From positions 1 to 27,950 of the IMG/VR virus record IMGVR_UViG_3300036652_000485: 27,950 nucleotides of DNA; one strand, given 5' to 3'. Positions 52-16,934 of the stretch are shown one piece after another (within the stretch, counting starts at the first letter, position 1; every line of letters starts with the position of its first letter). Position numbers and translations under genes: made by a program. Source of the stretch: a virus. The notes below the pieces were generated by a model. It made no database searches. It was given only the letters and a program-made list of their open reading frames with translations, and had not been told where the DNA came from.

Positions 52-146
52 CTAACTGGCCGATGCTGGTTGTTATCGGAGGATGCTTTGTCTTCTGGGC
101 CGGTGTGATCTGGGCTGGGTGTGCTGTGCTTTGGGGGCCGAGATAA
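36..146 (+). CDS. Small single-helix membrane protein (about 27-36 aa)
   Basis: A 36-codon reading frame runs from the ATG at 36. An internal ATG at 63 would give 27 residues. After a short charged start (MREEGPNWP) the rest is one hydrophobic segment rich in V, G, F, W and A, ending WGPR. The stop overlaps the next start as TAATG at 144-148, the spacing seen throughout this operon and the main reason to believe the frame. The start is uncertain: the ATG at 36 lacks a clear ribosome site, and the ATG at 63 has AGGAGGGG 12 nt upstream inside a hairpin. The function is unknown; a small inner-membrane early protein is likely if it is expressed. Confidence 0.35.
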   Translation: MREEGPNWPMLVVIGGCFVFWAGVIWAGCAVLWGPR

Positions 147-274
147 TGGGTCCGACAGCACCAAGACCAGCGGTCTACGCCTCGCGCCCAAGAGCGCGAC
201 ACCCCGCCCAGCCCCTCACGTCCAACGACGTTGAAACCCTTCTCGCCCAACGCAAGCTGGAGAAATCAGCATGA
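146..274 (+). CDS. Small hypothetical protein, 42 aa, upstream of ERF
   Basis: I chose the ATG at 146 because it overlaps the preceding stop (TAATG). The stop overlaps the ERF start as ATGA at 271-274, so the frame fits a translationally coupled chain. The first half is proline- and arginine-rich and is encoded by hairpin element B1 (174-199). The second half, SNDVETLLAQRKLEKSA, looks like an ordinary helical protein end. No family is recognised. The N-terminal half may be boundary-element sequence rather than selected protein. Confidence 0.45.
   Translation: MGPTAPRPAVYASRPRARHPAQPLTSNDVETLLAQRKLEKSA
174..199 (-). repeat. Hairpin boundary element B1
   Basis: The arm TCTACGCC is followed by stem TCGCGC/GCGCGA (182-187, 194-199) with loop CCAAGA. 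It lies in the first codons of the 42-aa gene ahead of ERF. In reverse complement it matches the 3'-end copies, including the GGCGTAGAC arm and CTCTTG loop. Confidence 0.7.
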
Positions 275-918
275 CCGACCGCGCCCTTACGCTCGTCTGG
301 GAAGGTGAGCGCGCACCGCTCGCCAAGGCCATCGTCGCCGCCCAGAAGGCCACCGAAAGCATCAAGAAAGCGGCCACCAATCCGGCCTTCAAGTCCAAAT
401 ACGCCGACTTGGCGCATGTTGTCGAAGGCGTCATCCCGGCCCTGAACGCGGCCGGCGTCGCGGTCCTCCAGTCCCCTTCCTACGACGGCGACATGGTGAG
501 CGTTTCCACGGTCCTGCTGCATGACAGCGGATCGTCCGTGACCAGCACCCTTTCCCTGCGCCCGTCCAAGACCGACCCCCAAGGGATCGGCTCAGCAATC
601 ACCTACGGACGCCGTTACGCCCTGCTGGCCATGACCGGCTCAGCCCCGGAAGACGACGACGGCAACGCCGCCTCAGGCCCGTCGCCCAAGCCCGAACCCA
701 AGCGCGCCGAAGTCCAGCCGCCGACGCTGAGCGAGCGCGCTGACCGTCTGGAGGCCACGCTCAAGTCGGTGAAGACCGCCGACGAGCTTCGCAAGGCTTA
801 CGAGCTGGGCGCGAAGCTGTGCGCCGACCTGGACGCCTCCGACCCTGAGCGCCTGGTGGACATCAACGCCATCTACGAAGCGCGCTTCAACCAACTCACT
901 GAGGCTCGCGCGGCATGA
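271..918 (+). CDS. erf: ERF family single-strand DNA annealing protein
   Basis: This 215-residue protein is a phage single-strand annealing recombinase of the ERF superfamily. It would pair complementary strands exposed by the exonuclease encoded next. The N-terminal domain shows the family hallmarks: NPAFKSKYADL at about 37-47, a basic helix before it, and DPQGIGSAITYGRRYAL at about 102-118 followed by an acidic EDDDGNAA end to the core. Residues beyond 135 form a charged, proline-rich linker and a helical tail, as in other ERF proteins. The ATG at 271 overlaps the stop of the preceding small gene, and the gene overlaps the exonuclease by 4 nt at 915-918. The pairing of annealase and exonuclease supports the call. 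Confidence 0.93.
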   Translation: MTDRALTLVWEGERAPLAKAIVAAQKATESIKKAATNPAFKSKYADLAHVVEGVIPALNAAGVAVLQSPSYDGDMVSVSTVLLHDSGSSVTSTLSLRPSKTDPQGIGSAITYGRRYALLAMTGSAPEDDDGNAASGPSPKPEPKRAEVQPPTLSERADRLEATLKSVKTADELRKAYELGAKLCADLDASDPERLVDINAIYEARFNQLTEARAA

Positions 919-1580
919 GCGGGGATCTGATCCAGGGTTCCGATGCTTGGCTCGCCTCGCGGGTCGGCAAGGTGACGGCTTCACGCATGGCCGACTTGAT
1001 GGCCCGCACGAAATCCGGGTGGGGCGCCAGCCGTGCGAACTACCTCGCCGAGCTTCTGTGCGAGCGGCTGACGGGCGTTCAAGGTGAGCGGTTCGTCAAC
1101 GCCGCCATGGCGCACGGAACGGCGACAGAGCCCTTTGCTCGCCAAGCCTACACCGACCGCACGGGCGTGGACGTGTTCGAGGTGGGATTCATCGACCATC
1201 CTGAAATCGCCATGAGCGGCGCGAGCCCAGACGGCTATGTCGGGCGAGACGGCTTGCTTGAAATCAAGTGCCCGAACACCGCGACCCATCTGGATACCCT
1301 CCTCAGCGGCGTCGTCCCTGAGAAATATGTCCTTCAGATGCACTGGCAGATGGCGTGCGCTGGCCGGGCATGGTGCGACTTCGTTTCCTATGATCCGCGA
1401 TGCCCCGAACACCTTCGCCTGTTCATGCGCCGCATCGAACGTGACACGTCCTTGGTCCTCCAACTTGAGGCCGAGGTATCAACCTTCCTGGCGGAACTCG
1501 ACGCGAAGATCGAGGCGCTGAACTCCCGGTATCTCGGCAAGGACACAGCGCGGGCTAATAACCCGCCTGTGGTTGCCTGA
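915..1580 (+). CDS. YqaJ-type (lambda exonuclease-like) viral recombinase
   Basis: This 221-residue nuclease of the PD-(D/E)XK superfamily would resect double-stranded ends to feed the ERF annealing protein. Visible motifs are the N-terminal GSDAWLASRVGKVTAS (about 8-23, the usual W..R.G..TAS start), an early acidic residue in GTATEP (E72), the catalytic pattern SPDG (D106) with LEIKCP (E116, K118), and the QMHWQM helix at 141-146. Length and motif order match phage YqaJ proteins. It overlaps its neighbours on both sides (915-918 and the base at 1580), so it is likely translated coupled with ERF. Confidence 0.93.
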   Translation: MSGDLIQGSDAWLASRVGKVTASRMADLMARTKSGWGASRANYLAELLCERLTGVQGERFVNAAMAHGTATEPFARQAYTDRTGVDVFEVGFIDHPEIAMSGASPDGYVGRDGLLEIKCPNTATHLDTLLSGVVPEKYVLQMHWQMACAGRAWCDFVSYDPRCPEHLRLFMRRIERDTSLVLQLEAEVSTFLAELDAKIEALNSRYLGKDTARANNPPVVA

Positions 1581-1909
1581 TGCTCCGCATCCCTGACAGC
1601 CACGTCGAACACGCCTTCGAAATCCTGAAGTCGCAGAAGCACGCCGCTGCGCGAGCAGGCTACGAGTTTGCCGAGAAGCACCTCAAGGTCGTCTTGGCGA
1701 AAGCGACACTCCAGGCCAACGGAAAGACGGTCGGCGAGCGTGAGGCAAGCGCTCTAGCCTCGCCCGAGTATGAGCGCGCTCTGGTCGCCTTCAAGTTGGT
1801 CGCTGAAAACTACCACAGCGAACGCGACCGCCGGGACGCCGCCTCAGCCATCATCGACGCGTGGCGCACTCAGCAAAGCGATATGCGGGCCATGGGGAAG
1901 GTTGGCTGA
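1580..1909 (+). CDS. Conserved phage protein of the recombination cluster, function unknown
   Basis: This is a 109-residue, mostly helical, charged protein with no cysteines. Notable segments are HVEHAFEILKSQKHAAARAGYEFAEKHLK (about 8-36) and a C-terminal helix SERDRRDAASAIIDAWRTQQSDM. Small proteins of this style often accompany YqaJ nucleases in phages, so an accessory role in recombination is possible, but I do not recognise a named family. Its start overlaps the exonuclease stop by one base, and its stop overlaps the next start as TGATG at 1907-1911. Confidence 0.75.
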   Translation: MLRIPDSHVEHAFEILKSQKHAAARAGYEFAEKHLKVVLAKATLQANGKTVGEREASALASPEYERALVAFKLVAENYHSERDRRDAASAIIDAWRTQQSDMRAMGKVG

Positions 1910-2109
1910 TGGACGCCATCGACAAGGGCCTGGCCGATTGCGGCGAGGGCATCCCGTACAAGGACCGGTCTAGCGGCGAGCGCGCCGCCTACGCGGCTTA
2001 TGCCGTCCTGCGGTGCTGCGGCTTGATCACGGCCGGCGACTGGCGCGTTCCCGAGCGCATCGGCCGCGTCGCTCAGGAAATGCTCGGGGATGAGGAGCGT
2101 GCAGCGTGA
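1909..2109 (+). CDS. Small hypothetical protein, 66 aa
   Basis: The ATG at 1909 is preferred over an in-frame upstream start because it overlaps the preceding stop (TGATG). The protein opens MDAIDKGLADCGEGIPYKD and contains YAAYAVLRCCGL and a helical end VPERIGRVAQEMLGDEE. No family is recognised. It ends in a GTGA overlap with the next gene at 2106-2109. Context places it in the recombination block. Confidence 0.65.
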   Translation: MDAIDKGLADCGEGIPYKDRSSGERAAYAAYAVLRCCGLITAGDWRVPERIGRVAQEMLGDEERAA

Positions 2110-2432
2110 GCTACGATGTTTGGCTTGAAGCGGACCTTGGCGGCAAAGAGCCGGTGTCCCTGCGGACCCTGGACGCCAACTACACCTGGAACATTTCGCC
2201 GATGATCACGGCGGCGGTGGGTCATACGCCGTCCGATTGGGATGGGGTTCTGGCGGCGCAAGTGGCCGAAATCACCTCCACAATCCTAAGCGCCTTCAAC
2301 GCCGATCCGGCGAAGTTTCGTGCGCTCAATCCAGACAACGGATGGGGCGACTTTGAGGGCGCCAGAGCCTTCATTCAGAAGATCAATGACGCCTGCCGTG
2401 ACGCGCCAGCCGCAATCATGAGGGTCGGTTGA
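2106..2432 (+). CDS. Conserved MSYDVWLE-type phage protein, function unknown
   Basis: This 108-residue protein starts with GTG in a GTGA overlap with the preceding stop. The opening MSYDVWLEADLGG, the central NYTWNISPM and the later NPDNGWGDFEGARAFI match the pattern of a small conserved protein seen in phages and actinobacterial genomes, as I recall it. No catalytic motif is evident. The stop is shared with the following HNH gene as TGATG at 2430-2434. Confidence 0.75.
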   Translation: MSYDVWLEADLGGKEPVSLRTLDANYTWNISPMITAAVGHTPSDWDGVLAAQVAEITSTILSAFNADPAKFRALNPDNGWGDFEGARAFIQKINDACRDAPAAIMRVG

Positions 2433-2908
2433 TGACCCTCCGCACCCCCGAACTCCGCGCCGCTCATGAACTCCTCAAGGCCCACCGCCGGGAGACGAAA
2501 CAACCGCGCGCCAAGCCGAAGGCGGAGAAGCACAAGAACGCCGACACGCGGGTCAAGGAGCCGGCTTATCTCGCCTGGCTACGCCGGCAACCTTGCGCGG
2601 TTGGCCCCGATGGTTGCTCAGGCCCCGTGGAGGCCGCCCACGTCCGTACGGCGAAGCGTGGCGATCCTCCGACAGGGCTTGGCCGGAAGCCGGATGATTG
2701 CCGCGCTACACCCCTTTGTCGTGGACATCATCGCGACGGACCAGACGCTCAGCACAAGTTCAACGAGCTGCGCTGGTGGGTCGGGCATGGGTTCGATCCG
2801 CACGTGGTCGCGGAAGAACACTACGCCCGCTTTCTGGCCGATGGCGCCCTTGAAGCGCCAGGCGTGAACCAGATTCAAGGGCTCCGTCGGAATAAGGAAA
2901 ATCCATGA
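2432..2908 (+). CDS. HNH-type nuclease of the Ref/DUF968-like group
   Basis: This 158-residue protein has a basic N-terminal third (residues 18-42) followed by a zinc-supported HNH fold. Cysteines stand at 55 and 62 in QPCAVGPDGCSG, AAH at 68-70, then GLGRKPDDCRATPLCRGHHRDG at about 82-103, with the paired histidines at 99-100. The spacing resembles the P1 Ref / DUF968 nucleases that cut in recombination intermediates, which suits its place after ERF and YqaJ. Assignment to that exact group is inference. I took the ATG at 2432 (TGATG overlap) over an upstream TTG. The last 20 codons contain hairpin element A1 and may be acquired tail sequence. Confidence 0.8.
   Translation: MTLRTPELRAAHELLKAHRRETKQPRAKPKAEKHKNADTRVKEPAYLAWLRRQPCAVGPDGCSGPVEAAHVRTAKRGDPPTGLGRKPDDCRATPLCRGHHRDGPDAQHKFNELRWWVGHGFDPHVVAEEHYARFLADGALEAPGVNQIQGLRRNKENP
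2842..2868 (+). repeat. Hairpin boundary element A1
   Basis: Stem TGGCGC/GCGCCA (2842-2847, 2855-2860) has loop CCTTGAA and outer arm GGCGTGAA. It lies in the last codons of the HNH nuclease gene. The loop and arm are identical to the reverse complement of B3, although the stem differs. Confidence 0.8.
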
Positions 2909-3201
2909 AACCGACTATCGCAGAAGCACGGCGGCATATTGCCGAACGTTTGGCGGAATATCGAGTGCCGGGAACCGTCAGCTACGGCGGTGTCATCGTC
3001 TCACCGGACAAGCTTGAAGCCCTCCTAGACGCCCTATCCCAGGCTGAGGGGGTGATTGAGCGAGCTCATGGCCTGACCGTCGTGAACAAGACGCCCCAGG
3101 GTTTCGTGAAATCCTACGCCCCAAACCTCGAAGCACTCGACGGCTTGCACGGCGACTGCGCCACCTTCCTCTCCTCTCTTAAGGGGCGTGCAAGTGATTG
3201 A
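2905..3201 (+). CDS. Hypothetical protein, 98 aa
   Basis: This helical 98-residue protein starts in an ATGA overlap with the HNH stop. Recognisable stretches are AEARRHIAERLAEYR and KLEALLDALSQAEGVIERA, the latter likely an amphipathic helix. No motif or family is recognised. Its final codons overlap the start region of the next gene, whose first bases (GTGATTGACCCGACAGAG) recur at 7950, so its C-terminus has been placed against a shared gene-start sequence. Confidence 0.65.
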   Translation: MKPTIAEARRHIAERLAEYRVPGTVSYGGVIVSPDKLEALLDALSQAEGVIERAHGLTVVNKTPQGFVKSYAPNLEALDGLHGDCATFLSSLKGRASD

Positions 3202-3210
3202 CCCGACAGA
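3191..3210 (+). repeat. Shared gene-start sequence, copy 1
   Basis: AAGTGATTGACCCGACAGAG recurs with one substitution at 7948-7967, each time covering a GTG start. The encoded start is IDPTE. Related CGACAG or TACGGAG stretches precede B1, B3 and B5. Confidence 0.7.
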
Positions 3211-3661
3211 GAAATCTACGCCTGTCGCTCCAAACGCGACACCCGGCCATCTCGACGCGCTTGCGCTCCAACATCACCTTGATTGGCTGGCCGCTCTGGA
3301 ATCGTCTTGGCGTGACGCGCGAGATTCGTCCGGTTACGCCGCGTCGTCGGCCTGGGCCATGCAGAACGGGCGCCAGCTTCTCAATGCTCACCGCCGGCTG
3401 CTTGGCTTCTACCTCGATATGGATGGCCCTGCTCGCATGGGCGTCCCCCGCGAGCCCACGTCAGGCATGTTGGACCGCGCAGTCGCCTTCGCCCTGAACG
3501 TCAAGATCAGCGGCGACTACGGCTGGAGCGCTTACATGCGGGACCTCTGGAAGACGATGCTGCAAGGCGTCCCGGTCCGTGATGGCCCTCTTGAGGGTCA
3601 CGGAACAGCCTCTCCGAGCAATGGTCCGACCCCTGAACTTAAGGGCCTTTCAGATGGATAG
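3194..3661 (+). CDS. Hypothetical protein, 155 aa, flanked by hairpin elements
   Basis: The GTG at 3194 is preferred over the GTG at 3188: GTGATTGACCCGACAGAG recurs with one difference at the GTG start at 7950, and AAGGGG lies 7 nt upstream. The N-terminus IDPTEKSTPVA and the C-terminus DGPLEGHGTASPSNGPTPELKG are encoded by the shared start and tail elements (B2 and A2). The core between them (about residues 20-130) looks like an independent helical protein containing LDWLAALESSWRDARDSS and LLNAHRRLLGFYLDM. Its function is unknown. It overlaps the next gene by 8 nt. Confidence 0.7.
   Translation: MIDPTEKSTPVAPNATPGHLDALALQHHLDWLAALESSWRDARDSSGYAASSAWAMQNGRQLLNAHRRLLGFYLDMDGPARMGVPREPTSGMLDRAVAFALNVKISGDYGWSAYMRDLWKTMLQGVPVRDGPLEGHGTASPSNGPTPELKGLSDG
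3215..3241 (-). repeat. Hairpin boundary element B2
   Basis: The arm TCTACGCC is followed by stem TGTCGC/GCGACA (3223-3228, 3236-3241) and loop TCCAAAC. It sits at the start of the 155-aa gene, where it encodes STPVAPNA. It shares its stem with B4. Confidence 0.8.
3583..3600 (+). repeat. Hairpin boundary element A2
   Basis: An 8-bp stem TGGCCCTC/GAGGGTCA encloses TT, with one G-T pair at the same place as in A4. It is followed by CGGAACAG, also as in A4. It lies near the end of the 155-aa gene. Confidence 0.75.
3599..3648 (+). repeat. Shared gene-tail sequence, copy 1
   Basis: CACGGAACAGC, then GGTCCGACCCCT and AAGGGCCT recur in the same order and near-equal spacing at 5044-5093. Both encode HGTA...S(N/S)GPTP. 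A partial third copy with GTCGGACCCCC lies at 4370-4380. Confidence 0.7.
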
Positions 3662-4418
3662 GGGGCCTACGGAGCTAGTCACGCCTGCGGCTTCAAGGGC
3701 CGCACACGCGAAGATCGCCGCGCTCTACGTCGAGACAGACGGCTGCTACTTCGGCCTGGAGGGTGTTGAGCCTTGGGATGAGCAGCGCGACGCCAGGCTG
3801 TATGACGGCCCGCATCCGGTGGTCGCGCACCCGCCCTGCCAGCGCTGGGGCCGCTTCTGGCACGGCTCGACGCGGAAGCCGCATCAATTCAAGCTTGGTG
3901 ACGACAAGGGATGCTTCAAGGCCGCGCTAGAGGCTGTGCGAGAATTTGGCGGTGTTCTGGAGCACCCGGCAGACAGCCAAGCGTGGCGCCATTTCGGCTT
4001 GAGCGCGCCCCGGCGCGAAGGTGGCTGGAAGCGAGCAGACTGGCCGCTGAACCAGGGTTGGACCTGCTACGTCGAGCAGGGCTTTTACGGCCACGCCTCG
4101 CGCAAGCCCACATGGCTCTACGCCGCCGGGGTTGACCTTCCTGACCTGACATGGGGCTGCGGTGAACAACGCATCCCCGAATGGATGATCGAACGCTACG
4201 GCTACGAGAAAGCCCGGCGGATCGGTGTTGTCGCCATGATCGGCGGCAAGGACAAGACCAGGAAGCGCAACGCCACGCCCGAACCGTTCCGGGACCTGCT
4301 GTTGTCGATAGCCCGGTCTGTGTCCGCCGATGGCGCCCTTGCGCCAGGCGTAGGCTTCTCCTCCGCTACGTCGGACCCCCTTAATCCTCCCCTTCCCAAC
4401 CTTCGGGGGGAAGGATGA
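3654..4418 (+). CDS. DNA cytosine methyltransferase-like phage protein
   Basis: This 254-residue protein carries HPPCQRWG at 59-66, which resembles the catalytic PPC motif of C5-cytosine methyltransferases, and LEHP at 102-105 in the place where ENV would be expected. ARLYDGPHPVVAHPPC reads like a strand leading into the PPC loop. No clear SAM-binding F.G.G motif is visible, so it may be a divergent or non-methylating relative. The ATG at 3654 has AAGGG 8 nt upstream and is preferred over the longer frame from 3579. Its ends hold elements B3 (residues 9-17) and A3 (225-235), and the last residues NPPLPNLRGEG come from a further palindrome at 4391-4414. Confidence 0.6.
   Translation: MDRGPTELVTPAASRAAHAKIAALYVETDGCYFGLEGVEPWDEQRDARLYDGPHPVVAHPPCQRWGRFWHGSTRKPHQFKLGDDKGCFKAALEAVREFGGVLEHPADSQAWRHFGLSAPRREGGWKRADWPLNQGWTCYVEQGFYGHASRKPTWLYAAGVDLPDLTWGCGEQRIPEWMIERYGYEKARRIGVVAMIGGKDKTRKRNATPEPFRDLLLSIARSVSADGALAPGVGFSSATSDPLNPPLPNLRGEG
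3678..3704 (-). repeat. Hairpin boundary element B3
   Basis: The arm GTCACGCC is followed by stem TGCGGC/GCCGCA (3686-3691, 3699-3704) and loop TTCAAGG. It lies in the first codons of the methyltransferase-like gene. Relative to B2 and B4, two stem pairs have changed on both sides. Confidence 0.8.
4331..4354 (+). repeat. Hairpin boundary element A3
   Basis: Stem TGGCGC/GCGCCA (4331-4336, 4341-4346) has loop CCTT and arm GGCGTAGG. It lies near the end of the methyltransferase-like gene, and a second palindrome, CCTTCCC/GGGAAGG, follows at 4391-4414. Confidence 0.8.
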
Positions 4419-4672
4419 TGCTGGAGCCGATGTCTATTGGTGGTCTCCGGCTTATCATTGTGCCGGAGCCAAAGCCGCCACACTGGTCAAAGCCTCGCTG
4501 TCCGACGAGCGTGCCGCCAGGGCGACGCCGCGCATGGAAGCGCTCTAATCCGCCCAGATTCCTGCGCCCTACCGTCTACCTTGAGCACGGCAAGATGCTG
4601 CGCACTAGCGACACCGTTTTCATGCGCGCCGCAGACTACTGGGCGCTCCAGCAAAGGCTATCTCGCCCATGA
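4415..4672 (+). CDS. Small basic hypothetical protein, 85 aa
   Basis: It starts ATGATG at 4415-4420, so either ATG could serve; GGAAGG is immediately upstream, which favours the second. The N-terminal half is proline- and arginine-rich. The C-terminal half, VYLEHGKMLRTSDTVFMRA ending LQQRLSRP, looks like a conserved small phage fold, but no family can be named. The stop overlaps the next start as ATGA at 4669-4672. It lies between elements A3 and B4, outside any inverted pair. Confidence 0.55.
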   Translation: MMLEPMSIGGLRLIIVPEPKPPHWSKPRCPTSVPPGRRRAWKRSNPPRFLRPTVYLEHGKMLRTSDTVFMRAADYWALQQRLSRP

Positions 4673-5103
4673 TCACCCCCACCACCGAACAGGAAGATTT
4701 AGGGGCCGACGTAGCGGCTCAAACGTCTACGCCTGTCGCTCAAACGCGACACACGCCAGGGCCGTGGCTCATGGCGGCGAGGCCGTCGAGCGTCGTTGGC
4801 TGGCCCATTGTCGCTCCTCCGAACGGGCGGGTGATTGCCGATCTCTACTATGTTGATAGGGATGGCCCTGCGGTCGAGATATTCAACCGCGAGTCCGCTG
4901 CGAATGGTCGCTTGATCGCCGCCGCGCCCGAGCTTCTAGAGGCGTGCATCGCCCTGCAAATGGAAGCGGCGGCGCGGGGCTTCGGACTTCGGATCGCTGA
5001 CGAAGCCATCGCCAAGGCCATGCTTGCCGATGGCGCTCCGCGTCACGGAACAGCGGCGGTGTCCAGCGGTCCGACCCCTCAATCTCTAAAGGCTCAACCA
5101 TGA
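4669..5103 (+). CDS. Conserved phage TPGPW...IAAAPELLEA protein, function unknown
   Basis: This 144-residue protein contains HTPGPWLMAARPSS (about residues 28-41) and NGRLIAAAPELLEACIALQ near residues 79-97. Together these mark a widespread family of small phage proteins that remains uncharacterised. The first 25 residues, including TPTTEQ and TSTPVAQT, are encoded partly by element B4. The last 25 (DGAPRHGTAAVSSGPTPQS) come from element A4 and the tail repeat. The conserved family core therefore lies exactly between the two hairpins. It overlaps the XRE gene by 4 nt. Confidence 0.78.
   Translation: MITPTTEQEDLGADVAAQTSTPVAQTRHTPGPWLMAARPSSVVGWPIVAPPNGRVIADLYYVDRDGPAVEIFNRESAANGRLIAAAPELLEACIALQMEAAARGFGLRIADEAIAKAMLADGAPRHGTAAVSSGPTPQSLKAQP
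4726..4751 (-). repeat. Hairpin boundary element B4
   Basis: The arm TCTACGCC is followed by stem TGTCGC/GCGACA (4734-4739, 4746-4751) and loop TCAAAC. It lies at the start of the TPGPW-family gene, where it encodes STPVAQT, directly before the conserved family core. Confidence 0.8.
5031..5045 (+). repeat. Hairpin boundary element A4
   Basis: Stem TGGCGC/GCGTCA (5031-5036, 5040-5045) has loop TCC and one G-T pair. It lies directly after the conserved core of the TPGPW-family gene. CGGAACAGC follows, as after A2. Confidence 0.75.
5044..5093 (+). repeat. Shared gene-tail sequence, copy 2
   Basis: This is the counterpart of 3599-3648 at the end of the TPGPW-family gene. It carries CACGGAACAGC, GGTCCGACCCCT and AAAGGCT, the last acting as ribosome-site sequence for the XRE gene. 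Confidence 0.7.
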
Positions 5104-5387
5104 CCTTCGGCGAGTGGCTGAAATCACAGCGCGAGGATCGCGGCATGTCGTTGCGGGACGTGGAGCGCGCCAGCGAGGGCGCGGTGTCCAATGCGCTAAT
5201 TTCTCAAATTGAGACGGGCAAAGTGAAGCGCCCGAGCCTTCACGCCTGCATCCAGATCGCGGCGGCCTTGGGGCTATCGGCAAGCGAGATGCTGGAACGC
5301 GCCGTCGCCGAAAGCCAGACCTCACCCGCCCCGGACTTCTGCCCCCATTGCGGCCAGATCATGCGGCCCGACCGGAAGGATTTCTGA
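5100..5387 (+). CDS. XRE-family helix-turn-helix transcription regulator
   Basis: This 95-residue regulator has a single HTH_XRE domain at about 4-66: FGEWLKSQREDRGMSLRDVE, then the recognition helix region SNALISQIETGKVKRPS and the closing helices IQIAAALGLSASEML. A short tail holds CPHCG at 81-85, one half of a possible zinc-binding site. Such proteins bind operator DNA as dimers and could act as an early-gene or lysogeny repressor, although its position inside the early operon also fits a modulator of its own transcript. No clear operator was located. Confidence 0.88.
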   Translation: MTFGEWLKSQREDRGMSLRDVERASEGAVSNALISQIETGKVKRPSLHACIQIAAALGLSASEMLERAVAESQTSPAPDFCPHCGQIMRPDRKDF

Positions 5388-5391
5388 TCCC

Positions 5392-6501
5392 ATGACATCG
5401 ACATCTGATCTACGAGCGCTGACGGACGACTTGCTGGCCCTCTGCAAGGAGATGCGCGACTGGCTCCAGCCTGAAGTGGTGAAGGAGCCAGACCGCACGT
5501 TCTTCTGGAAGCTGGTCGATGCCATCAACGCGACGGAGCGGCTTAAGGCTTCTATGGCCGACAGCGAAACGGCTCCGGGCGTGCGCGGACGGCTCCAAGC
5601 GCCGCCGGGATGGATAGAGCGGTTGTGCCGCCTCATCCACGAACACGTGGCCGACAGCCCCCCCGATCAACTGATCCACCAGCCGTGGCAGAACTCATGG
5701 GAAGAGCCCACGCGACCGCGCTGGACGCAATGGCTCGAACTATCTGAGGCCATCGTCGCTCTTGAGACCGCAGGCGTAGACGGTGCAAAGCCGCTGTCTG
5801 ACCAAGGCGTTATCCTCCGATCCATCGCCAAGCAGCGCCTCAGCACTGAGCTTGACGAGCACGAACACGGATCAGCCGATTGGGAGGATGGTTACGACCA
5901 ACTGATCCTTCTGGCTCGCCGGGCGTCTGACCCCAACCCCCTACCCGATCAGCCGGTGCGCGGGTTGGGGGAGGAACTGGCAACGCTAAGCAAGAAGGCG
6001 TCCATCAACGGCCCGCTTCGCTACACCAACCACGAACGCAAGGACGACCGAGGACACGCATCATGGTCGGAGGTCGAGTGTCTATCGAAGGAGAAAAGTT
6101 GGCACGTCTGCCAATGTCCCGATGAGGAAGACGCCGCCTTTATCGTAGCTGCGGTGAACCACGTCCGCGCCCAACTCGACGCCTCCACCCCCCAAGACGG
6201 GCCAGACCAGCCATCCAGGGGGCTTGCGTGTATGCTCTGCGGCCGCAAGAACGGCGACCCGCGCCCATGGGACACGCGGTCCAGCATCTGCCCCGACTGC
6301 GAAGATAAGCAGGCCAGGGAGGAACCCATTAACCCATCCGATATGCGGGTGGAGGAGATCGCGCGGCTCCGAGCTGCGCTGCTGGCGATTGCTCAAGGTG
6401 ATCAGGTCGCGTTTGGCAAGGTGTGGAACGCAAAACTATCGTGCTGGGTCTCGGTCCGAGACTTCGCAAGCGCCACCCTTATAGGAGCCCACCATGTCTG
6501 A
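5392..6501 (+). CDS. Large modular hypothetical protein with zinc ribbon, 369 aa
   Basis: This is a patchwork protein. Residues 1-60 are a helical segment (ALTDDLLALCKEMRDWLQ). The middle includes RYTNHERKDDRGHASWSEVE, a typical phage accessory fold. About residues 280-303 hold a zinc ribbon, CMLCGRK to CPDC. The parts are joined by proline-rich linkers with related sequence, LPDQPVRGLGE and GPDQPSRGLA, and the first is encoded by a 9-bp inverted repeat at 5931-5970. A degenerate hairpin copy at 5755-5782 also falls inside. No function can be assigned. Fusion of formerly separate modules is my inference. It starts at ATG 5392 with GGAAGGA upstream. Confidence 0.7.
   Translation: MTSTSDLRALTDDLLALCKEMRDWLQPEVVKEPDRTFFWKLVDAINATERLKASMADSETAPGVRGRLQAPPGWIERLCRLIHEHVADSPPDQLIHQPWQNSWEEPTRPRWTQWLELSEAIVALETAGVDGAKPLSDQGVILRSIAKQRLSTELDEHEHGSADWEDGYDQLILLARRASDPNPLPDQPVRGLGEELATLSKKASINGPLRYTNHERKDDRGHASWSEVECLSKEKSWHVCQCPDEEDAAFIVAAVNHVRAQLDASTPQDGPDQPSRGLACMLCGRKNGDPRPWDTRSSICPDCEDKQAREEPINPSDMRVEEIARLRAALLAIAQGDQVAFGKVWNAKLSCWVSVRDFASATLIGAHHV
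5755..5782 (+). repeat. Degenerate hairpin copy inside the 369-aa gene
   Basis: TCGCTCTTGAG and the arm CAGGCGTAGACG match the reverse complements of B1 and B4, but the stem no longer pairs well. It falls near residue 121 of the modular 369-aa protein and may mark an old fusion joint. Confidence 0.5.
5931..5970. repeat. Inverted repeat encoding a proline-rich linker
   Basis: CCCCAACCC (5931-5939) pairs perfectly with GGGTTGGGG (5962-5970) around a 22-nt loop inside the 369-aa gene. It encodes the linker PNPLPDQPVRGLGE. Confidence 0.65.
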
Positions 6502-6778
6502 TCGGGAGGTGGACGAGGCGGTGAAGCGGCTGGCGAGGGCGCTGAAACCAGCAGTGGGTGCTGGAATCCCACGGTATCCGGCCGCGCTCGGCAAGGACAT
6601 TCGCACCGTCCTCTCCGCTCTAGCCACCCGCACGAAGGCGCTGGAGGCGTTTTCCTTGGCAGACAACCTAGACCGCAATCTGGCCGATGACATCCGGCTT
6701 ACCATTATGCGCGGGATGATCACGGCCAACGATTTCAGGTTTGCCCGCAAAGCTCTTACTGGAGGTCAGGATGTCTAG
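6494..6778 (+). CDS. Hypothetical protein, 94 aa
   Basis: This helical, soluble 94-residue protein starts 8 nt before the preceding stop, with ATAGGAG upstream as its ribosome site. It contains REVDEAVKRLARALKPAVG and IRTVLSALATRTKALEAF, both likely amphipathic helices. No family is recognised. Its last codons include GGAGGT at 6761-6766, which serves as a ribosome site for the micro-ORF starting at 6771. Confidence 0.6.
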   Translation: MSDREVDEAVKRLARALKPAVGAGIPRYPAALGKDIRTVLSALATRTKALEAFSLADNLDRNLADDIRLTIMRGMITANDFRFARKALTGGQDV

Positions 6779-6872
6779 GGATTCTAGGTCGGACAGAGTT
6801 ATCGACGCCTGCGGCTCAAGCGCCGCACCCGAGAGATCAAGTAGCCAACAATATACCTCGGAGCCGAAATGA
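6771..6872 (+). CDS. Possible 33-aa leader peptide carrying hairpin element B5
   Basis: A 33-codon frame starts at ATG 6771 with an excellent GGAGGT 4 nt upstream and ends in an ATGA overlap with the next gene at 6869-6872. It opens MSRDSRSDRVIDACGSSAAP, is polar and low in complexity, and its middle is encoded by hairpin B5. It bridges what would otherwise be a 90-nt gap in a chain of overlapping genes. It could couple translation of the Cys-rich gene to the upstream operon rather than act as a protein. Expression is unproven. Confidence 0.4.
   Translation: MSRDSRSDRVIDACGSSAAPERSSSQQYTSEPK
6802..6827 (-). repeat. Hairpin boundary element B5
   Basis: The arm TCGACGCC is followed by stem TGCGGC/GCCGCA (6810-6815, 6822-6827) and loop TCAAGC. 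It lies within the micro-ORF just before the Cys-rich gene. It shares its stem with B3. Confidence 0.8.
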
Positions 6873-7687
6873 CCGAAGTCAAAATCGTCCTGCCAACTGG
6901 CGCACTGGGTAGTTCCGCTGGCGAGGACTTTCTCTGCACGGCCATGCGGATCATCGGCGTGGGTTTCGCCGAACCTGGAGAATGGAGCGCAAAGTATGGC
7001 TGCGACTTTGAGAACGAAGTATTCTTGATGAAGCCATATTGCTGGTGCGAATCTCCAGCGTGTCCGTGGTGTGCGGGATGCGGGGATTTCGAAGACGCCT
7101 GCATCGCTTGCAGCGCGCACCCTCATGACAGCGGATGCTTTAAAGACGTCACGTATGCTCGTCGCGAGGCATGGAAGGCATCGCACCCGAAAGCTCCGTT
7201 TGATGAGCAAATGAACGCTGGCCGGCGCATTAATATAGACGAGCGCAGGCGGCGGGGCTTGCCTTTAGAGCCTTATCAATGGCTTTGCGACTGCGGAGCA
7301 GAGGATGAGATGCGCACTGATCGCGACGTGCGAGGGTGTGATGCTCATCTGGGGACGGGCGTGTTTGCCCGATTTAATGGGCGTGCGCCGAACTTCTGGT
7401 TCAAGCCAAGCAATTTCAAGCTGAACTGGTACAAATACATCGGCCGCGATATGGAGGTTGACGGCGATCTCCCCGCCGATTTCCTTGAACGCATCTTCGC
7501 TACGCACCCGACGGGTATGACCCTAGACGAGGCGATTTCGGAGACTGGCCGCCAGGAGGAGGAAACCGCTGAAAGTTTCCGCCGGATGATGGCGTCTCTC
7601 TCCGATGGGCTTGCCCAAGACGCGGCGGAAGACGGATCACGCGAAGCGGAGCGTAGCGAAGGGACGGCCAAAAGGACCCATCCATGA
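6869..7687 (+). CDS. Cysteine-rich hypothetical phage protein, 272 aa
   Basis: The N-terminal third has dense cysteines: PYCWCESPACPWCAGCGDFE at 57-76 followed by CIAC at 78-81 and C90. This suggests two zinc-binding knuckles. A second Cys patch, WLCDCG, stands in the middle, followed by GRAPNFWFKPSNFKLNWYKY, a W/F-rich stretch. The C-terminal 60 residues are acidic and low in complexity, and contain element A5 (SDGLAQ) and a charged REAERSEGT tail. DNA or RNA binding through zinc knuckles is plausible but not shown. It starts in an ATGA overlap with the micro-ORF. Confidence 0.65.
   Translation: MTEVKIVLPTGALGSSAGEDFLCTAMRIIGVGFAEPGEWSAKYGCDFENEVFLMKPYCWCESPACPWCAGCGDFEDACIACSAHPHDSGCFKDVTYARREAWKASHPKAPFDEQMNAGRRINIDERRRRGLPLEPYQWLCDCGAEDEMRTDRDVRGCDAHLGTGVFARFNGRAPNFWFKPSNFKLNWYKYIGRDMEVDGDLPADFLERIFATHPTGMTLDEAISETGRQEEETAESFRRMMASLSDGLAQDAAEDGSREAERSEGTAKRTHP
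7606..7617 (+). repeat. Hairpin boundary element A5 (short)
   Basis: A 5-bp stem TGGGC/GCCCA encloses TT and is preceded by the usual TCCGA. It lies near the end of the Cys-rich gene. It lacks the GGCGT arm, so membership is less certain. Confidence 0.5.
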
Positions 7688-7953
7688 CCCCTCAACAAAA
7701 ACCCAGAGCCTCTAGAGATGCGCTCCTAGAACTGATCGGGAGGCTGGAGAAGGCGGAAGAGGGTGTAGCTCGCATCATCGACCCGTCGTCGTGGCGCGTG
7801 TTCGACGGCTATCTGGCCGACATGAAGCGGAAGTACGGCCACCTAAACGCCGCCTATGACCCGGAGTCGTTCAGGGACAAACGGTCCTTGGCGAAGGCCA
7901 GAGAGATCATCGCCTTTCTCGCCACAAGTGTTCAAGCGGAGGAAGGGAAGTGA
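7684..7953 (+). CDS. Hypothetical protein, 89 aa
   Basis: It starts in an ATGA overlap with the Cys-rich gene and ends in a GTGA overlap with the next. The sequence is helical and charged, with SRDALLELIGRLEKAEEGVA at 9-28 and a conserved-looking WRVFDGYLADMKRKYG. No motif is recognised. The AGGAAGGG near its end supplies the ribosome site of the following gene. Confidence 0.65.
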   Translation: MTPQQKPRASRDALLELIGRLEKAEEGVARIIDPSSWRVFDGYLADMKRKYGHLNAAYDPESFRDKRSLAKAREIIAFLATSVQAEEGK

Positions 7954-7967
7954 TTGATCCGACAGAG
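7948..7967 (+). repeat. Shared gene-start sequence, copy 2
   Basis: This is the match to 3191-3210, covering the GTG start of the 101-aa gene. Here no full hairpin follows, so start sequence and hairpin can be inherited separately. Confidence 0.7.
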
Positions 7968-8255
7968 CAAAACCGCAAGGACTTCTCTTCGTCCTTCGGC
8001 CGACCCGCGAGAATGATCCTAGGGGAAACTTGGCCAGATTGGTGGGCCGATCTCGTCACGGCCATGAAGGTCATCACCATCAACCGTGACGACAGACTTC
8101 GTGGCGGTCCCGATATGGCGGTCATCTGGACGCCAGACGGCCTGATATTCGCGAAGAAGGGCGACGAGATTCGGCGCTACCTATTCGGGACAATCGCTGT
8201 AGTGCCCGCCGATGGGCCAACGGCCCAGGCGAAGACCGATGAGGCTCCTCTGTAG
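7950..8255 (+). CDS. Hypothetical protein, 101 aa, with the shared IDPTE start
   Basis: The GTG start is fixed by the overlap GTGA and by the match of GTGATTGATCCGACAGAG to the start of the gene at 3194. After this shared leader the protein differs: GETWPDWWADLVTAMKVITI is a likely amphipathic helix and strand, and DMAVIWTPDGLIFAKKGDE follows. The last codons hold element A6 (ADGPTAQ). The function is unknown. It is followed by a 41-nt gap before the membrane protein gene. Confidence 0.65.
   Translation: MIDPTEQNRKDFSSSFGRPARMILGETWPDWWADLVTAMKVITINRDDRLRGGPDMAVIWTPDGLIFAKKGDEIRRYLFGTIAVVPADGPTAQAKTDEAPL
8213..8235 (+). repeat. Hairpin boundary element A6
   Basis: Stem TGGGCC/GGCCCA (8213-8218, 8222-8227) has loop AAC, is preceded by CGCCGA and is followed by GGCGAAGA. 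It lies in the last codons of the 101-aa gene. Confidence 0.7.
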
Positions 8256-8296
8256 GAACCCCAGGAACAACCTTAGCCCCCAAACGTTGAGAGGAT

Positions 8297-8485
8297 ATGG
8301 CTAGCCTTCTCATCGGTCTGATATTCTTGGTCCTCATCGTTGGGATCGCTTGGTGGATCATCCAGCAAGTTCCTCTCCCGCCGCCGATGCGCTGGGTCGT
8401 GACGGTGGTGTTCGGACTTATCGTGCTGCTGGTGGTGCTGAACTATTTGCCAGCCGGCGCGCTTCCGCGAGGGCGTTGGGGCTAG
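8297..8485 (+). CDS. Small two-helix membrane protein (Thivi_2564-like)
   Basis: This 62-residue protein has two transmembrane helices, about 4-23 (LLIGLIFLVLIVGIAWWII) and 32-52 (RWVVTVVFGLIVLLVVLNYL), separated by QVPLPPPM. The pattern resembles the small Thivi_2564 membrane family as I remember it. GAGAGGAT directly precedes the ATG. It is the last plus-strand gene, and its stop shares CTAG with the stop of the opposing gene. A host-membrane early function or an antiholin-like role is possible but unsupported. Confidence 0.7.
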   Translation: MASLLIGLIFLVLIVGIAWWIIQQVPLPPPMRWVVTVVFGLIVLLVVLNYLPAGALPRGRWG

Positions 8486-8682
8486 ACGGCTCCAGCAGCC
8501 TTCAGATCAGCCTCAGCCCGAGCCACATCAACCAGGGCCGAAGCCCGCGCCGCGTCGCTCGCCGCATTCAGGGTCGCCAGATCGGTTTCGCTTAGCGTGC
8601 CCTTGATCTCTTCCGCCGCCGCGAACAACTGCGGAATGGACGCCAGGCCAGCCAGGATCAGTTGCAGGGTTGCCGGGTTCAT
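8482..8682 (-). CDS. Small phage protein at the end of the lysis cassette, 66 aa
   Basis: This 66-residue protein opens MNPATLQLILAGLASIPQLF, a moderately hydrophobic helix, and continues with an alanine-rich charged helix ending KAAGAV. Similar short proteins are common beside lysis genes in phages of Gram-negative hosts, with no assigned role. The start is in an ATGA overlap with the lipoprotein gene (8679-8682). It is the last gene of the long minus-strand unit. Confidence 0.65.
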   Translation of the reverse strand: MNPATLQLILAGLASIPQLFAAAEEIKGTLSETDLATLNAASDAARASALVDVARAEADLKAAGAV

Positions 8683-9017
8683 GGATTCGCTCCTGGATTG
8701 GCGGCAATGGTGATCAGCTCGGCGATCAGTGCGGTTGCTGTAGCGACGTTCTGTTGAGACGTGGCGCTATCACCAGCCTTGCGGGCGTTGTCGGCCGCCG
8801 TGAGGGCATCCGTCGCCTTCTGAAGGTCAACAGCCACGGCGAGCGCCTTGGGGCCGTGCAGGACGTGCGAAACGGCCAAGGCGTCCAGAGTGTTCGCCAC
8901 CGCGTCCAGGGACGCCCACGCGGCGGCTGTGCCCTTTGCTGAGGCCACCTGAGTGCCGCCCGTGGTCGCACATGCAGCCAGGGCGAGACAGGATGCTCCA
9001 ATGAGGAGAAGGCGCAT
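8679..9017 (-). CDS. Lipoprotein, candidate outer-membrane spanin subunit
   Basis: The 112-residue product begins MRLLLIGASCLALAAC, a signal peptide with an LAAC lipobox at C16, so it should be lipidated and placed in a membrane. The mature part is alanine-rich and helical. The gene directly follows one for an N-terminally anchored helical protein, with a TGATG overlap. That arrangement suits the inner and outer halves of a two-component spanin that disrupts the outer membrane at lysis. The spanin role is inference from topology and context; another periplasmic lipoprotein role remains possible. Confidence 0.6.
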   Translation of the reverse strand: MRLLLIGASCLALAACATTGGTQVASAKGTAAAWASLDAVANTLDALAVSHVLHGPKALAVAVDLQKATDALTAADNARKAGDSATSQQNVATATALIAELITIAANPGANP

Positions 9018-9337
9018 CAGGTGGCGGGAGTCGCGGCGGCTTCAACAGCCGATGCAGCCGTCTGGAGGGCTGTCACGGCGGCGCCCAGGTCGGCAACGGG
9101 CTGGTCGAGGGCGCTGGTGTCATTCAGCGAGCCGATGGCCCCAGCAGCGGTCGTGAGGGCCGTGGCGGCGTCATTGATAGACGAAGCGGCGGAAGAGATG
9201 GCGGTAGCAGCGTCAGAGAGTTTCATGGCGAGGATCCCAAGGGCCTTGGTGAGACCGTTATCGCTGGCCGGGCGAGTGACGGCGTGGAAGAGAACGGCGA
9301 AAGCCAATCCGAGGATGGCGAAGGCTAGCAGCGTCAT
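9017..9337 (-). CDS. N-terminally anchored helical protein, candidate inner-membrane spanin
   Basis: In this 106-residue protein, residues 3-20 (LLAFAILGLAFAVLFHAV) form one membrane helix. The rest is a long Ala/Ser/Thr-rich segment with coiled-coil-like spacing, for example AIGSLNDTSALDQPVADLG. This is the topology of an i-spanin, and the next gene encodes a lipoprotein, as the o-spanin partner would be. The low-complexity composition is unusual for Rz-type proteins, so confidence is limited. It overlaps both neighbours (ATGA upstream, TGATG downstream). Confidence 0.5.
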   Translation of the reverse strand: MTLLAFAILGLAFAVLFHAVTRPASDNGLTKALGILAMKLSDAATAISSAASSINDAATALTTAAGAIGSLNDTSALDQPVADLGAAVTALQTAASAVEAAATPAT

Positions 9338-9699
9338 GCGACTACCGTAAGAACCCTGTCATGACTGGCGTCGATCTGCCTGCGGATGGCTGGGCCGAGA
9401 ATGATGCACCCATGGCTCGCGTCATGGTTCGCGTTGTCACCGTGGATGCGGAAGAGAGATCGTCCGAAGACATTCGTTCCCGGCAACGGATCGAGGTTCA
9501 TCGTGATTGGGCCGGTGTTGGGCGATAGGTGCGCCGAGCCGATGCTGTAGCGCCCAGCGGGGATGGGGCCGACGCCACCAGCCGGCTGCATGTCGGGGTT
9601 GTTGCGCCACGCTCCAGCCTTACCGCTGTAGCCAGTCCCCGCGAATTGGCCTTCGGGGTCGATCAGGTCGCCCGTGGCAATCTTATAGGTCCAGCTCAT
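9334..9699 (-). CDS. L,D-transpeptidase-like (DUF2778/tlde1-type) peptidoglycan enzyme
   Basis: This 121-residue protein carries GGVGPIPAGRYSIG at 41-54, FRIHGDNANHDASHGCII at 83-100 and a short tail. The HGD...SHGC arrangement matches the catalytic His/Cys signature of the YkuD-related DUF2778/tlde1 group, whose members cleave or exchange peptidoglycan stem peptides. C98 would be the nucleophile. There is no signal peptide. Placed between a holin candidate and the spanin-like pair, it is the best candidate for the cell-wall enzyme of this phage. The actual activity (hydrolase or transpeptidase) is not decided by sequence. Confidence 0.75.
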   Translation of the reverse strand: MSWTYKIATGDLIDPEGQFAGTGYSGKAGAWRNNPDMQPAGGVGPIPAGRYSIGSAHLSPNTGPITMNLDPLPGTNVFGRSLFRIHGDNANHDASHGCIILGPAIRRQIDASHDRVLTVVA

Positions 9700-9965
9700 T
9701 GCCCATCCTTCGTTTGAGAAGCCATCTGGACGATGGTATCATCCTTGGCCTGCGAACCCTTGGATGACCCCCACCTGTACCCGACATAAGCGCCAATCGA
9801 GGAGCCCACGGTGCCAGAGGTGAGGGCGGCGAAAAGCGGCATGTTGTCCTTGGGAATGTCGTGGAACCCGAGGATGAAAACAGCTGACCCCATCAAGAAC
9901 AGCATGGCGAAGATGAACGCCGCGTCTAGGGTCCGGTCGCCTTTGGTATCAGTGTCCACGCTCAC
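9696..9965 (-). CDS. Two-helix membrane protein, holin candidate
   Basis: The 89-residue product has hydrophobic segments at about 15-34 (AAFIFAMLFLMGSAVFILGF) and 44-65 (FAALTSGTVGSSIGAYVGYR), a polar loop between, and a charged C-terminal tail. Two helices, small size and position just upstream of the peptidoglycan enzyme are typical of class II holins. It starts with GTG inside a GTGA overlap with the XhlA-like gene. Other small membrane proteins in the cassette could equally be the holin. Confidence 0.55.
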   Translation of the reverse strand: MSVDTDTKGDRTLDAAFIFAMLFLMGSAVFILGFHDIPKDNMPLFAALTSGTVGSSIGAYVGYRWGSSKGSQAKDDTIVQMASQTKDGQ

Positions 9966-10132
9966 CCTCCCAGCATATGACGAAGCTTATCACTGAAGAA
10001 GCCGATCACCCAGAGAAGCGCACCCACCGCGCCGATGGCCCATTTCTGGGCCTCCTTCAGGCTGGACACATCCTCGCGCAGCTTCTCAATCGCGTCGTCC
10101 ACCCGGTCTTTCCACCGTTCGTTTTCGGTCAC
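9962..10132 (-). CDS. XhlA-like small membrane protein, 56 aa
   Basis: This frame starts at GTG 10132 in a GTGA overlap with the upstream gene and ends in a GTGA overlap with the holin candidate. The protein is MTENERWKDRVDDAIEKL, then a heptad-like helix to KEAQKW, one membrane helix (AIGAVGALLWVIGFF) and a short basic tail. That layout matches the XhlA (haemolysin XhlA) group found in phage lysis cassettes, where it acts with holins. Codon phase and double overlap make the gene convincing despite its size. Confidence 0.7.
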   Translation of the reverse strand: MTENERWKDRVDDAIEKLREDVSSLKEAQKWAIGAVGALLWVIGFFSDKLRHMLGG

Positions 10133-10593
10133 CGGATAGCACCCGAGCGACCTGCAATATGACCAGAACGGATGCCCAAGCTGCGACGACTGCCACGATC
10201 CACCAGCGATGCAATGGCAACCCCCCCGATAGCTAATAGCTTCAGGGAAAATATGCCCCCATTGAGACTATAGTACCAGAGTTCTCCGCTACGTTGTGTC
10301 GTCAAGCCGACGGCCGCGATGATCTCCTGAAAAAGATACATCAGCACCACGCCGAAACACAGCAGGGAGCGGGTGCGGTATCCGATCACACCCAAGGTCA
10401 CGGTCAGCACCGCGTCGAAGGATGGAACTACGTAGGGGGCGATCTCGAACCCCAGGCGGTTTTCCATCAGGCGGGAGAACACCCACCCCAGGCCGACCAC
10501 CCAGCTCACCCGCTGGGCGATATGATCCCTGGACCACGCCGCCAGCAACAGGACGATTCCGAGACATACGCCGTAGAAATAGACCCACTGCAT
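10129..10593 (-). CDS. Polytopic membrane protein of the lysis region, 154 aa
   Basis: I chose the ATG at 10593 (MQWVYFYGVCLGIVLLLAAW) because it lies 4 nt after the upstream stop; a longer frame from 10650 would overlap that gene. Four to five hydrophobic segments are visible, among them VLTVTLGVIGY, LLCFGVVLMYLFQEIIAAVG and FSLKLLAIGGVAIASLV, and the C-terminus is basic. The function is unknown. A multi-span holin or a membrane protein accompanying the XhlA-like gene are options. Confidence 0.65.
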   Translation of the reverse strand: MQWVYFYGVCLGIVLLLAAWSRDHIAQRVSWVVGLGWVFSRLMENRLGFEIAPYVVPSFDAVLTVTLGVIGYRTRSLLCFGVVLMYLFQEIIAAVGLTTQRSGELWYYSLNGGIFSLKLLAIGGVAIASLVDRGSRRSLGIRSGHIAGRSGAIR

Positions 10594-10597
10594 GGGA

Positions 10598-10783
10598 TTA
10601 CGCCGGGGGCTTGTTGCCGCCGCCTTCGAGCGGCGTGACCACGGCCCCACCAGCGATCAGGCGCTCCACCACGGCAGCGTCAAGGGCGGTCAGGGCTTCC
10701 ACACCCGCTGCTAGCGCTGCCTGGGCGACGTGGAGCTTGTGTGCGGCTTTGTCGCGCAGGGCGATCAGGTCGGCGTCGGTCAT
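10598..10783 (-). CDS. Small helical hypothetical protein, 61 aa
   Basis: The ATG at 10783 follows GAGGGGG at good spacing. The protein starts MTDADLIALRDKAAHKLHVA and continues as an alanine-rich helix, ending in a glycine/proline tail. No family is recognised. It lies between the tail fibre and the lysis cassette and could be a fibre-associated or lysis-associated accessory. Confidence 0.55.
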   Translation of the reverse strand: MTDADLIALRDKAAHKLHVAQAALAAGVEALTALDAAVVERLIAGGAVVTPLEGGGNKPPA

Positions 10784-10809
10784 TTAGTCCCCCTCGTGTG
10801 AAAAACGGG

Positions 10810-11667
10810 TCACTTGCCGAAAGCTACGTAGAAAACATCGGTGATCCCGGTGGAGTCGCCATCCCAAGCGATCCCGATTCCGACTTGCGTGGTGGAAACC
10901 GGATAGCCAAACGCGCCCCCGCCGTTGCCTCCCGTATGCGCCGTATTGCTCTTGACCGTGGCAACCACACCGTAATTCGTGGTTGTGAAGGGGTGAGGAA
11001 GCGTCTCCACGACATAGCTATCATCGCCGGGCGAGACGGTGGCCCAGACCAGAATTAGGCCGCCGGGGAAGGTAATGTACCCGCTTGTTCCCAAGCTCTG
11101 GGCGAAGGAGGCAGCAAGGTTCGTCGCGGAGATCGCGTCTTGCACAAACGCGGTCGTCGCGATCTCAGTGGTGTTCGTTCCGGTGGCCGCTGTGACACTG
11201 GCCGGGGTTCCGGTGAACGTCGGAGAATTGAGGGGCGCAAAGCCCTGCGACTGGACGTAAGCCGTGGTCGCGATCTTGGCGGAATTGTCGTTGCTGGCCG
11301 GCGTCGGGGCCTGCGGAATGCCGGTGAACGTGGGGCTGTTGATCGGGGCGAAGCCGCTGGTGTTGGCCTGGGCGCCCAGCGTATAAATCGTGTCGAAGGT
11401 GAGGGTTGAGCCCCCAGCTACATCAAGCGTGGCGTCGTAGGCAATCCCATCATCGGCCCAGATGACCGTGGTCTGGCCATAGAACCGCCCAGCCGAGTCG
11501 GCAGTCTGCGGATTCTCGATTGGGGTGGAGAGGTCCGCGTCGGCGAACAGGGCCGAGACGTTGGAGGTCCCAGCGTCGAAATAGGTCAGGACCGACCCTG
11601 GCGCGGGAACGCCCAGCGCACTCAAGATCGGTTCGGTGATGGGAAGGATCAGTCTGCCGCCGGCCAA
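10810..11667 (-). CDS. Tail fibre protein with gp53-like C-terminal domain
   Basis: This 285-residue protein starts with TTG at 11667, chosen because GAGGAG lies 7 nt upstream and no ATG fits. Residues 1-100 form a virion-attachment region with VPAPGSVLTYFDAGTS and IWADDGIAYDATLDVAGG. Two copies of an NSPTFTG...IATTAYVQ repeat follow at about 107-140 and 144-176. The C-terminal domain (about 190-285, SGYITFPGGLILVWATV) resembles the receptor-binding end of gp53-like fibres. It probably binds the host surface. It stands apart from the other fibre-type genes, next to lysis. Confidence 0.85.
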   Translation of the reverse strand: MAGGRLILPITEPILSALGVPAPGSVLTYFDAGTSNVSALFADADLSTPIENPQTADSAGRFYGQTTVIWADDGIAYDATLDVAGGSTLTFDTIYTLGAQANTSGFAPINSPTFTGIPQAPTPASNDNSAKIATTAYVQSQGFAPLNSPTFTGTPASVTAATGTNTTEIATTAFVQDAISATNLAASFAQSLGTSGYITFPGGLILVWATVSPGDDSYVVETLPHPFTTTNYGVVATVKSNTAHTGGNGGGAFGYPVSTTQVGIGIAWDGDSTGITDVFYVAFGK

Positions 11668-11875
11668 AGCTTTGCTCCTCTAGGGAAGCAGCTTCGCCGC
11701 ACAACAAAACTAGCCCATCCGAATTGGAAAATCCATACCCTCGACGATTGTGAGCGCGCCGGATCGGTAGTATCGAATTTGACTCATGGATTTTTGGACC
11801 CACGTCGCGGCGCAGTTTTTCCCCAAGCTGGCGCTGATGTGCGTGGTCTATTTCTTCATCGGGTATTTCGGGCGG
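11668..11875. other. Intergenic region between ejection protein and tail fibre genes
   Basis: This 208-nt stretch separates the stop of the 838-aa gene from the fibre start. It holds the fibre's ribosome site (GAGGAG near 11680). It is more AT-rich around 11700-11790 than its surroundings, so a minus-strand promoter is possible, but I see no convincing -35/-10 pair. A plus-strand frame begins at 11786. Confidence 0.4.
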
Positions 11876-12040
11876 CTAATTGACCTTTGGAAGGTAGGAA
11901 GACGCCCGCTGCGCCACGCTCCCCGGCGTGTTGAACTCGTAGTTCCCCCCGAGCGCGCTGAGCGGGACCTCGGTTGGGCGCACGAGGTTCCCGACCCCAG
12001 CAAGAGCCCCCCCGAAGTTCCCCGGTTGCCTGATCGCTAG
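11786..12040 (+). CDS. Possible antisense small membrane protein, 84 aa
   Basis: The first 30 codons lie in intergenic sequence and encode a credible membrane helix (FFPKLALMCVVYFFIGYFG). The rest runs antisense to the end of the 838-aa gene and is basic and proline-rich, like many chance frames. There is no clear ribosome site before the ATG, and it would be transcribed against the late operon. It may be a small moron-type gene or an accident; I lean towards doubtful. Confidence 0.25.
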   Translation: MDFWTHVAAQFFPKLALMCVVYFFIGYFGRLIDLWKVGRRPLRHAPRRVELVVPPERAERDLGWAHEVPDPSKSPPEVPRLPDR

Positions 12041-16899: not shown

Positions 16900-16934
16900 G
16901 AAGGATTCTCCTGAGAGTTTGGAGCCTTCGGCCC

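Follow-up and report, generated by a model that had tools for sequence, protein, structure and literature searches.

It has long been asked how phage gene modules come to be joined so cleanly at their gene ends. Boundary sequences account for few of the joints; illegitimate recombination is usually invoked by default. Promoter-stem-loop (PeSL) cassettes were reportedly described in T4-like phages by Comeau et al. in 2014 (cited in PMC5931544), with the repeated stem-loops at gene joints proposed to serve modular shuffling. They are the nearest idea in T4-like phages to the elements analysed here, although PeSLs reportedly carry promoters and terminators in intergenic gaps, whereas here neither was detected and the copies lie in coding ends. 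Conserved boundary sequences have been proposed for phage mosaic joints in general (PMC3029335), and the phage-specific SAS/ESAS repeats of cluster K mycobacteriophages are found at some of the gene starts, and half of the repeats have imperfect inverted repeats (PMC3203893). Integron attC sites have also been reported in phages (PMC9892861). Outside phages, the REP elements of the GTAG and CGTC superfamilies, including RPE-4 and RPE-6 of Rickettsia, are like the present elements in being short hairpins with complementary stem variants, a conserved unpaired tag at one end, inverted neighbours and some copies in coding ends (PMC3733652). Joint repeats are thus already known in other phages, and it is their inverted, in-gene form that seems new.

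The window analysed here, the whole 27,950-nucleotide stretch of the viral record IMGVR_UViG_3300036652_000485, carries one repeat family at gene ends about twelve times in a phage with its own annealing recombinase, which makes the boundary-sequence model directly testable. In the A orientation, the element consists of CCGA, a 6-bp stem starting with TG, a loop that usually includes CTTGA, the complementary half ending with CA, and the arm GGCGTRGAC; the B copies are reverse complements of the A copies. About 10-20 bases beyond the arm lies an outer motif resembling GTCGGACCC, often followed by AATC, which was overlooked in the original prediction and stretches the element to about 55-60 bp. 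Agreement of the copies with the consensus of this motif averaged 7.5 of 9 against 5.8 at random places, and none of 20,000 samples was as high, in a test that is partly circular as the motif was derived from the same copies. Ten clear copies scored 26.4-40.4 bits with a covariance model and the next best place in the window 11.7; the model was built from these ten, so their match is given by construction and what is informative is the distance to the next place. Strict hairpins (TG-N4-loop-N4-CA, then the arm with up to three mismatches) were observed seven times, compared with a mean of 0.06 and a maximum of 2 in 300 dinucleotide-preserving shuffles, which rules out a chance origin of the family. 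All seven fell in the first 8.3 kb of the window, a scan of positions 8300-27950 found zero, and all elements are contained within 146-8265. The hairpin family is therefore confirmed, both by the model gap and by the shuffle test that the original prediction had itself named as capable of overturning it.

Read from the sequence, the B elements lie closely behind a start codon and the A elements before a stop codon in the same reading frame, and between the early-region gene modules the hairpin faces the gene and the outer motif points outward. The clear B copies are all on the minus strand: B1 (146-206, hairpin 182-199) in the N-terminal part of a small gene before the ERF gene, B2 (3188-3246, hairpin 3223-3241) at the start of a 157-aa gene, B3 (3654-3710, hairpin 3686-3704) before a methyltransferase (MT)-like gene, B4 (4692-4757, hairpin 4734-4751) at the start of the TPGPW gene, and B5 (6780-6833, hairpin 6810-6827) within a mini-ORF immediately ahead of the Cys-rich gene. 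The clear A copies, on the plus strand, are A1 (2837-2890, hairpin 2842-2860), A2 (3578-3640, hairpin 3583-3600), A3 (4326-4385, hairpin 4331-4346), A4 (5026-5085, hairpin 5031-5045) at the end of the TPGPW gene, and A6 (8208-8265, hairpin 8213-8227). SAS/ESAS repeats occur only at gene starts, upstream of the start codon (PMC3203893), whereas here half of the copies are at gene ends, and both ends carry in-frame elements in opposite orientations. Sigma-70 and terminator scans stayed at background level, so that neither a promoter or terminator reading nor the early promoter and terminator stem-loop of a PeSL was borne out; one weak terminator-like site overlaps B2 on the minus strand.

Several details of the predicted family needed revision. 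Eleven hairpins had been counted, ten of which are clear; the remaining one, A5 (7600-7670, plus strand), at the end of the Cys-rich gene, is a poor copy with the palindrome TGGGCTTGCCCA at 7606-7617 followed by GGCGGAAGAC, and was not recognised by the model. The degenerate copy placed near 5758 (5755-5781, plus strand, inside gene 5392-6501) does have the exact arm GGCGTAGAC at 5773-5781, without a proper stem or a model match. The predicted arm, GGCGTRGAC or close, holds for most copies, with CGGAACAGC in its place in A2 and A4, and the TG...CA stem ends are usual, with TC...GA in B1. The alternation of B and A stood, while a probable B6 (7948-8010, minus strand) had been missed. Its outer part is like that of B2: GATTGATCCGACAGAG is present as at B2, GATTGAYCCGACAGAG is common to both, and a 23-nt repeat links 3192 and 7948 (91%), whereas the hairpin is replaced by an unrelated 6-bp one, AAGGAC/GTCCTT, at 7977-7996. 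With B6 counted as a probable twelfth copy, the order is therefore probably six regular alternating B-A pairs plus the degenerate copy.

A2 and A4 have one G-T pair each in their stems and share a 41-nt repeat (76%) at 3597-3637 and 5042-5082. They form a separate A subfamily, in which the arm (CGGA) and outer motif (TCCG) are complementary and the arm is unlike that of all other copies. Complementary arm and outer motif were also seen in A3/B4; the two cases together are a weak lead. The mini-ORF containing B5 has 33 codons (6772-6870, plus strand, beginning MSRDSRSDRVIDACGSSAAPER) and overlaps both the stop codon before it and the start codon after it, so that translational coupling to the Cys-rich gene is possible.

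Comparison of the stems across copies showed that the hairpin shape is kept while the stem sequence varies. All 60 cells form standard pairs, four of the six stem pairs have changed on both sides, in ten cells, and the covariation score was 0.578 compared with a shuffled mean of 0.112. Such complementarity may reflect either selection on shape or template-switching palindrome correction, which needs no selection. RNAalifold across the copies returned the main hairpin only. A three-way junction suggested by single-sequence DNA folds, in which the left flank pairs with the outer motif and the arm with a downstream CTACG, was unsupported across copies (p 0.56 and 0.15). Similarity was 0.61 within A or within B and 0.50 from A to B (p 0.008), and the two ends of one module showed no special mutual likeness.

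The most direct evidence that the elements mark joints comes from relatives of the bracketed proteins. It is well supported that homologous proteins elsewhere start and stop at what would here be the element edges: the homology edge coincided with the element edge at all five edges tested in three proteins, namely both ends of the MT-like and TPGPW proteins and the C-terminal end of the HNH protein. For the MT-like protein, about 50 relatives were found among viral contigs, bacterial contigs and phages, most of which align over residues 45/46 to 247/249, and phrog_12600 matches residues 44-250 with positions 2-196 of its 203. In the gene, codon 42-44 is where B3 and its flank end and codon 249-251 where A3 begins, leaving a conserved core (3711-4325, plus strand) between them. 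The relatives begin with ATGATCGCCGCCCTCTAC (prophage L013) or with GTG at the equivalent position, where the window has AAGATCGCCGCGCTCTAC right behind B3, so that their native ATG or GTG start codon corresponds to AAG at 3711. The TPGPW protein matches phrog_1273 at 25-117, with B4 ending at codon 27-28 and A4 beginning at codon 119-121, and a relative in prophage L014 starts MSGVKHTPGPW. Relatives of the HNH/DUF968-like protein (2429-2908, plus strand) match up to residue 130-137, and A1 begins at 137-138. In the Cys-rich protein, homology stops at or before residue 238, a few residues from A5, which begins at 244. Viral contigs yielded no homologs of the 157-aa gene or of gene 7950.

Gene order in relatives points the same way. 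In a Caulobacter MAG (L203), the end of the HNH relative overlaps the start of the MT relative, where the window has A1, gene 2905, B2, the 157-aa gene, A2 and B3 between the two. The prophages L013 and L014 are near-identical over the stretch from ERF to HNH inclusive but have different genes thereafter, the point of divergence corresponding to A1; the end of HNH is thus a real joint elsewhere too, though there without the element. One changed adjacency (L203) and one joint in phages without the element (L013/L014) are the gene-content changes seen between relatives. In two unrelated contigs (L237 and L238, at 4001-4051), the last part of the MT-like gene survives as a 50-bp remnant (86% DNA identity) before another gene, left over from a mosaic joint at the C-terminus of MT.

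We give about an even chance to the reading that the elements are DNA boundary elements of REP-like build that served as joining points for gene modules, probably through annealing recombination. The joints are well supported, and the mechanism is what we infer. Modules of the form B-gene(s)-A would have been joined or exchanged at the elements, leaving the bracketed genes to start and end in element sequence, which replaces or extends their original termini and is translated as a short tail. The likely route would be resection by YqaJ, after which the phage's own ERF would anneal short homologous ends. The genes for both proteins lie beside B1 on the plus strand, within the B1-A1 module: an ERF single-strand annealing protein (271-918; PF04404, 5e-21; phrog_2324) and a YqaJ exonuclease (915-1580; PF09588, 1e-29). 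It is their presence in the same block that suggests ERF as the joiner. The original reading of the elements as module joints is sustained by the homology edges, the L203 adjacency and the L013/L014 divergence, while its proposed role for ERF would be a conjecture of the same kind. A family far above chance, the five coinciding edges, the AAG behind B3, and ERF and YqaJ beside B1 all count for boundary elements. The greater likeness of A to A and B to B is also more in keeping with exchange of like boundaries than with the copying of cassettes together with both their ends.

Against boundary elements, no exchange with both joints inside elements was seen among the fetched relatives, which also included no second carrier; the L203 comparison involves a distant relative (41% for HNH), and the element is missing from the L013/L014 joint. 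Plain homologous joining needs no conserved hairpin, yet the stems covary, which adds a puzzle. The boundary sequences proposed earlier are alike in being short common sequences at gene ends that join unrelated genes (PMC3029335), and the five edges of three proteins here do show a shared sequence where homologous gene blocks join. Neither inverted pairs nor covarying hairpins that are read into proteins form part of the earlier description.

The main rival, close to the mobile palindrome also offered in the original prediction, which we consider possible though distinctly doubtful, is that these are selfish mobile palindromes of the REP or RPE kind, moved by a host transposase in trans, repeatedly inserted near gene ends and tolerated there as short tails of little cost. 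An unpaired conserved arm, compensatory stem variants, inverted neighbours and insertion into coding ends have all been described for REPs and RPEs (PMC3733652), and the complementary variants of GTAG REPs have their counterpart here in the fully paired cells, ten of them changed on both sides. The layout differs, being stem-GGCGTAGAC, that is GTCTACGCC-stem, with no GTAG or CGTC ahead of the stem. The arm (GGCGTRGAC or CGGAACAGC) follows the stem in all clear copies, whereas GTAG REPs have an unpaired GTAG directly before it; CGTC REPs and RPEs have a terminal CGTC, an 8-9 bp stem starting with AT and a CCA tail, in contrast to the 6-bp stem starting with TG and lacking a CCA tail here. The RAYT (Y1) transposase domain PF01797 was absent from the window and the overlapping record G001, though a host gene is possible. 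Mobile insertion also sits poorly with the strict alternation, the hairpins facing the gene, and elements that meet native start and stop points instead of scattered terminal positions, confined to one region of the phage and absent from its other about 33 kb.

A role at the RNA level is unlikely, whether control of translation by the paired hairpins near start and stop codons, protection of the mRNA or pairing of its two ends. The elements do adjoin start and stop codons, their stems covary, and A and B copies are complementary to each other (A1-B3, 22 nt at 91%; A3-B4, 38 nt at 79%), but the best-matched pairs are not from the ends of the same gene. A and B would give reverse-complementary RNA motifs, so that one recognised RNA shape cannot serve both, whereas a DNA function can be shared. 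No promoter or terminator signal was found at the elements, and an Rfam search of them gave chance matches only. The reverse complementarity therefore fits a DNA function rather than a single RNA motif and, together with the like-with-like copies and ERF and YqaJ beside B1, favours boundary elements.

Integron attC sites invite another comparison, as there too a folded single-strand shape is kept while the sequence varies. They occur once per gene module, whereas here each gene has two elements in opposite orientation, and the R'' (RYYYAAC) and R' (GTTRRRY) boxes were absent from all 12 elements, so the attC reading was rejected. We regard as improbable a reading in which self-contained single-gene cassettes with hairpin-bearing inverted ends of about 60 bp are recognised by shape in single-stranded DNA and moved or swapped as units, unlike integrons or REPs. 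Slighter still is the likelihood that single genes form self-contained cassettes, each with inverted repeats at its termini and mobilised whole by an enzyme recognising the folded single strand. The six regular B-gene-A units, whose hairpins point inward, and a shape conserved over sequence as in sites read from single strands, would suit such cassettes, but the B and A of one module are not closest kin, integron-type R boxes are lacking, neither a tyrosine integrase nor a Y1 transposase was found in the phage sequence examined, and the same gene cores occur elsewhere without the repeats.

Searches beyond the window recovered no further family. Relatives fetched by the ERF, capsid or MT protein nowhere carried the element above about 21 bits with the model. 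Two exact-pattern scans of viral contigs gave 20 stretches, none of which passed the strict hairpin-plus-arm scan, and 30 stretches, with single places reaching 28 bits and no contig with a convincing second copy. A de novo search of 152 other loci for arm-sharing hairpin families gave at best 5, compared with 7 in the window. With the model, the family was not found in 199 Caulobacteraceae and 200 Sphingomonadaceae genomes, in shallow scans that scored 34-35 candidates per genome, nor in 385 Alphaproteobacteria genomes with the exact pattern, which matches only about 4 of the 12 window copies; these results also speak, at that depth, against mobile palindromes. Single model matches of 31-33 bits in the Caulobacteraceae and Sphingomonadaceae genomes were judged to be chance or left unresolved. 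The overlapping record L108 (IMGVR_UViG_3300037069_000283) is identical to window positions 16708-27949 and extends the phage about 12.9 kb past the right end, adding a further 13 kb of the same phage without the element. Two related HNH-type genes in the window (22950-23543 and 24252-24818, plus strand) are on the strand opposite to the surrounding structural genes, a placement that is common for freestanding homing endonuclease genes.
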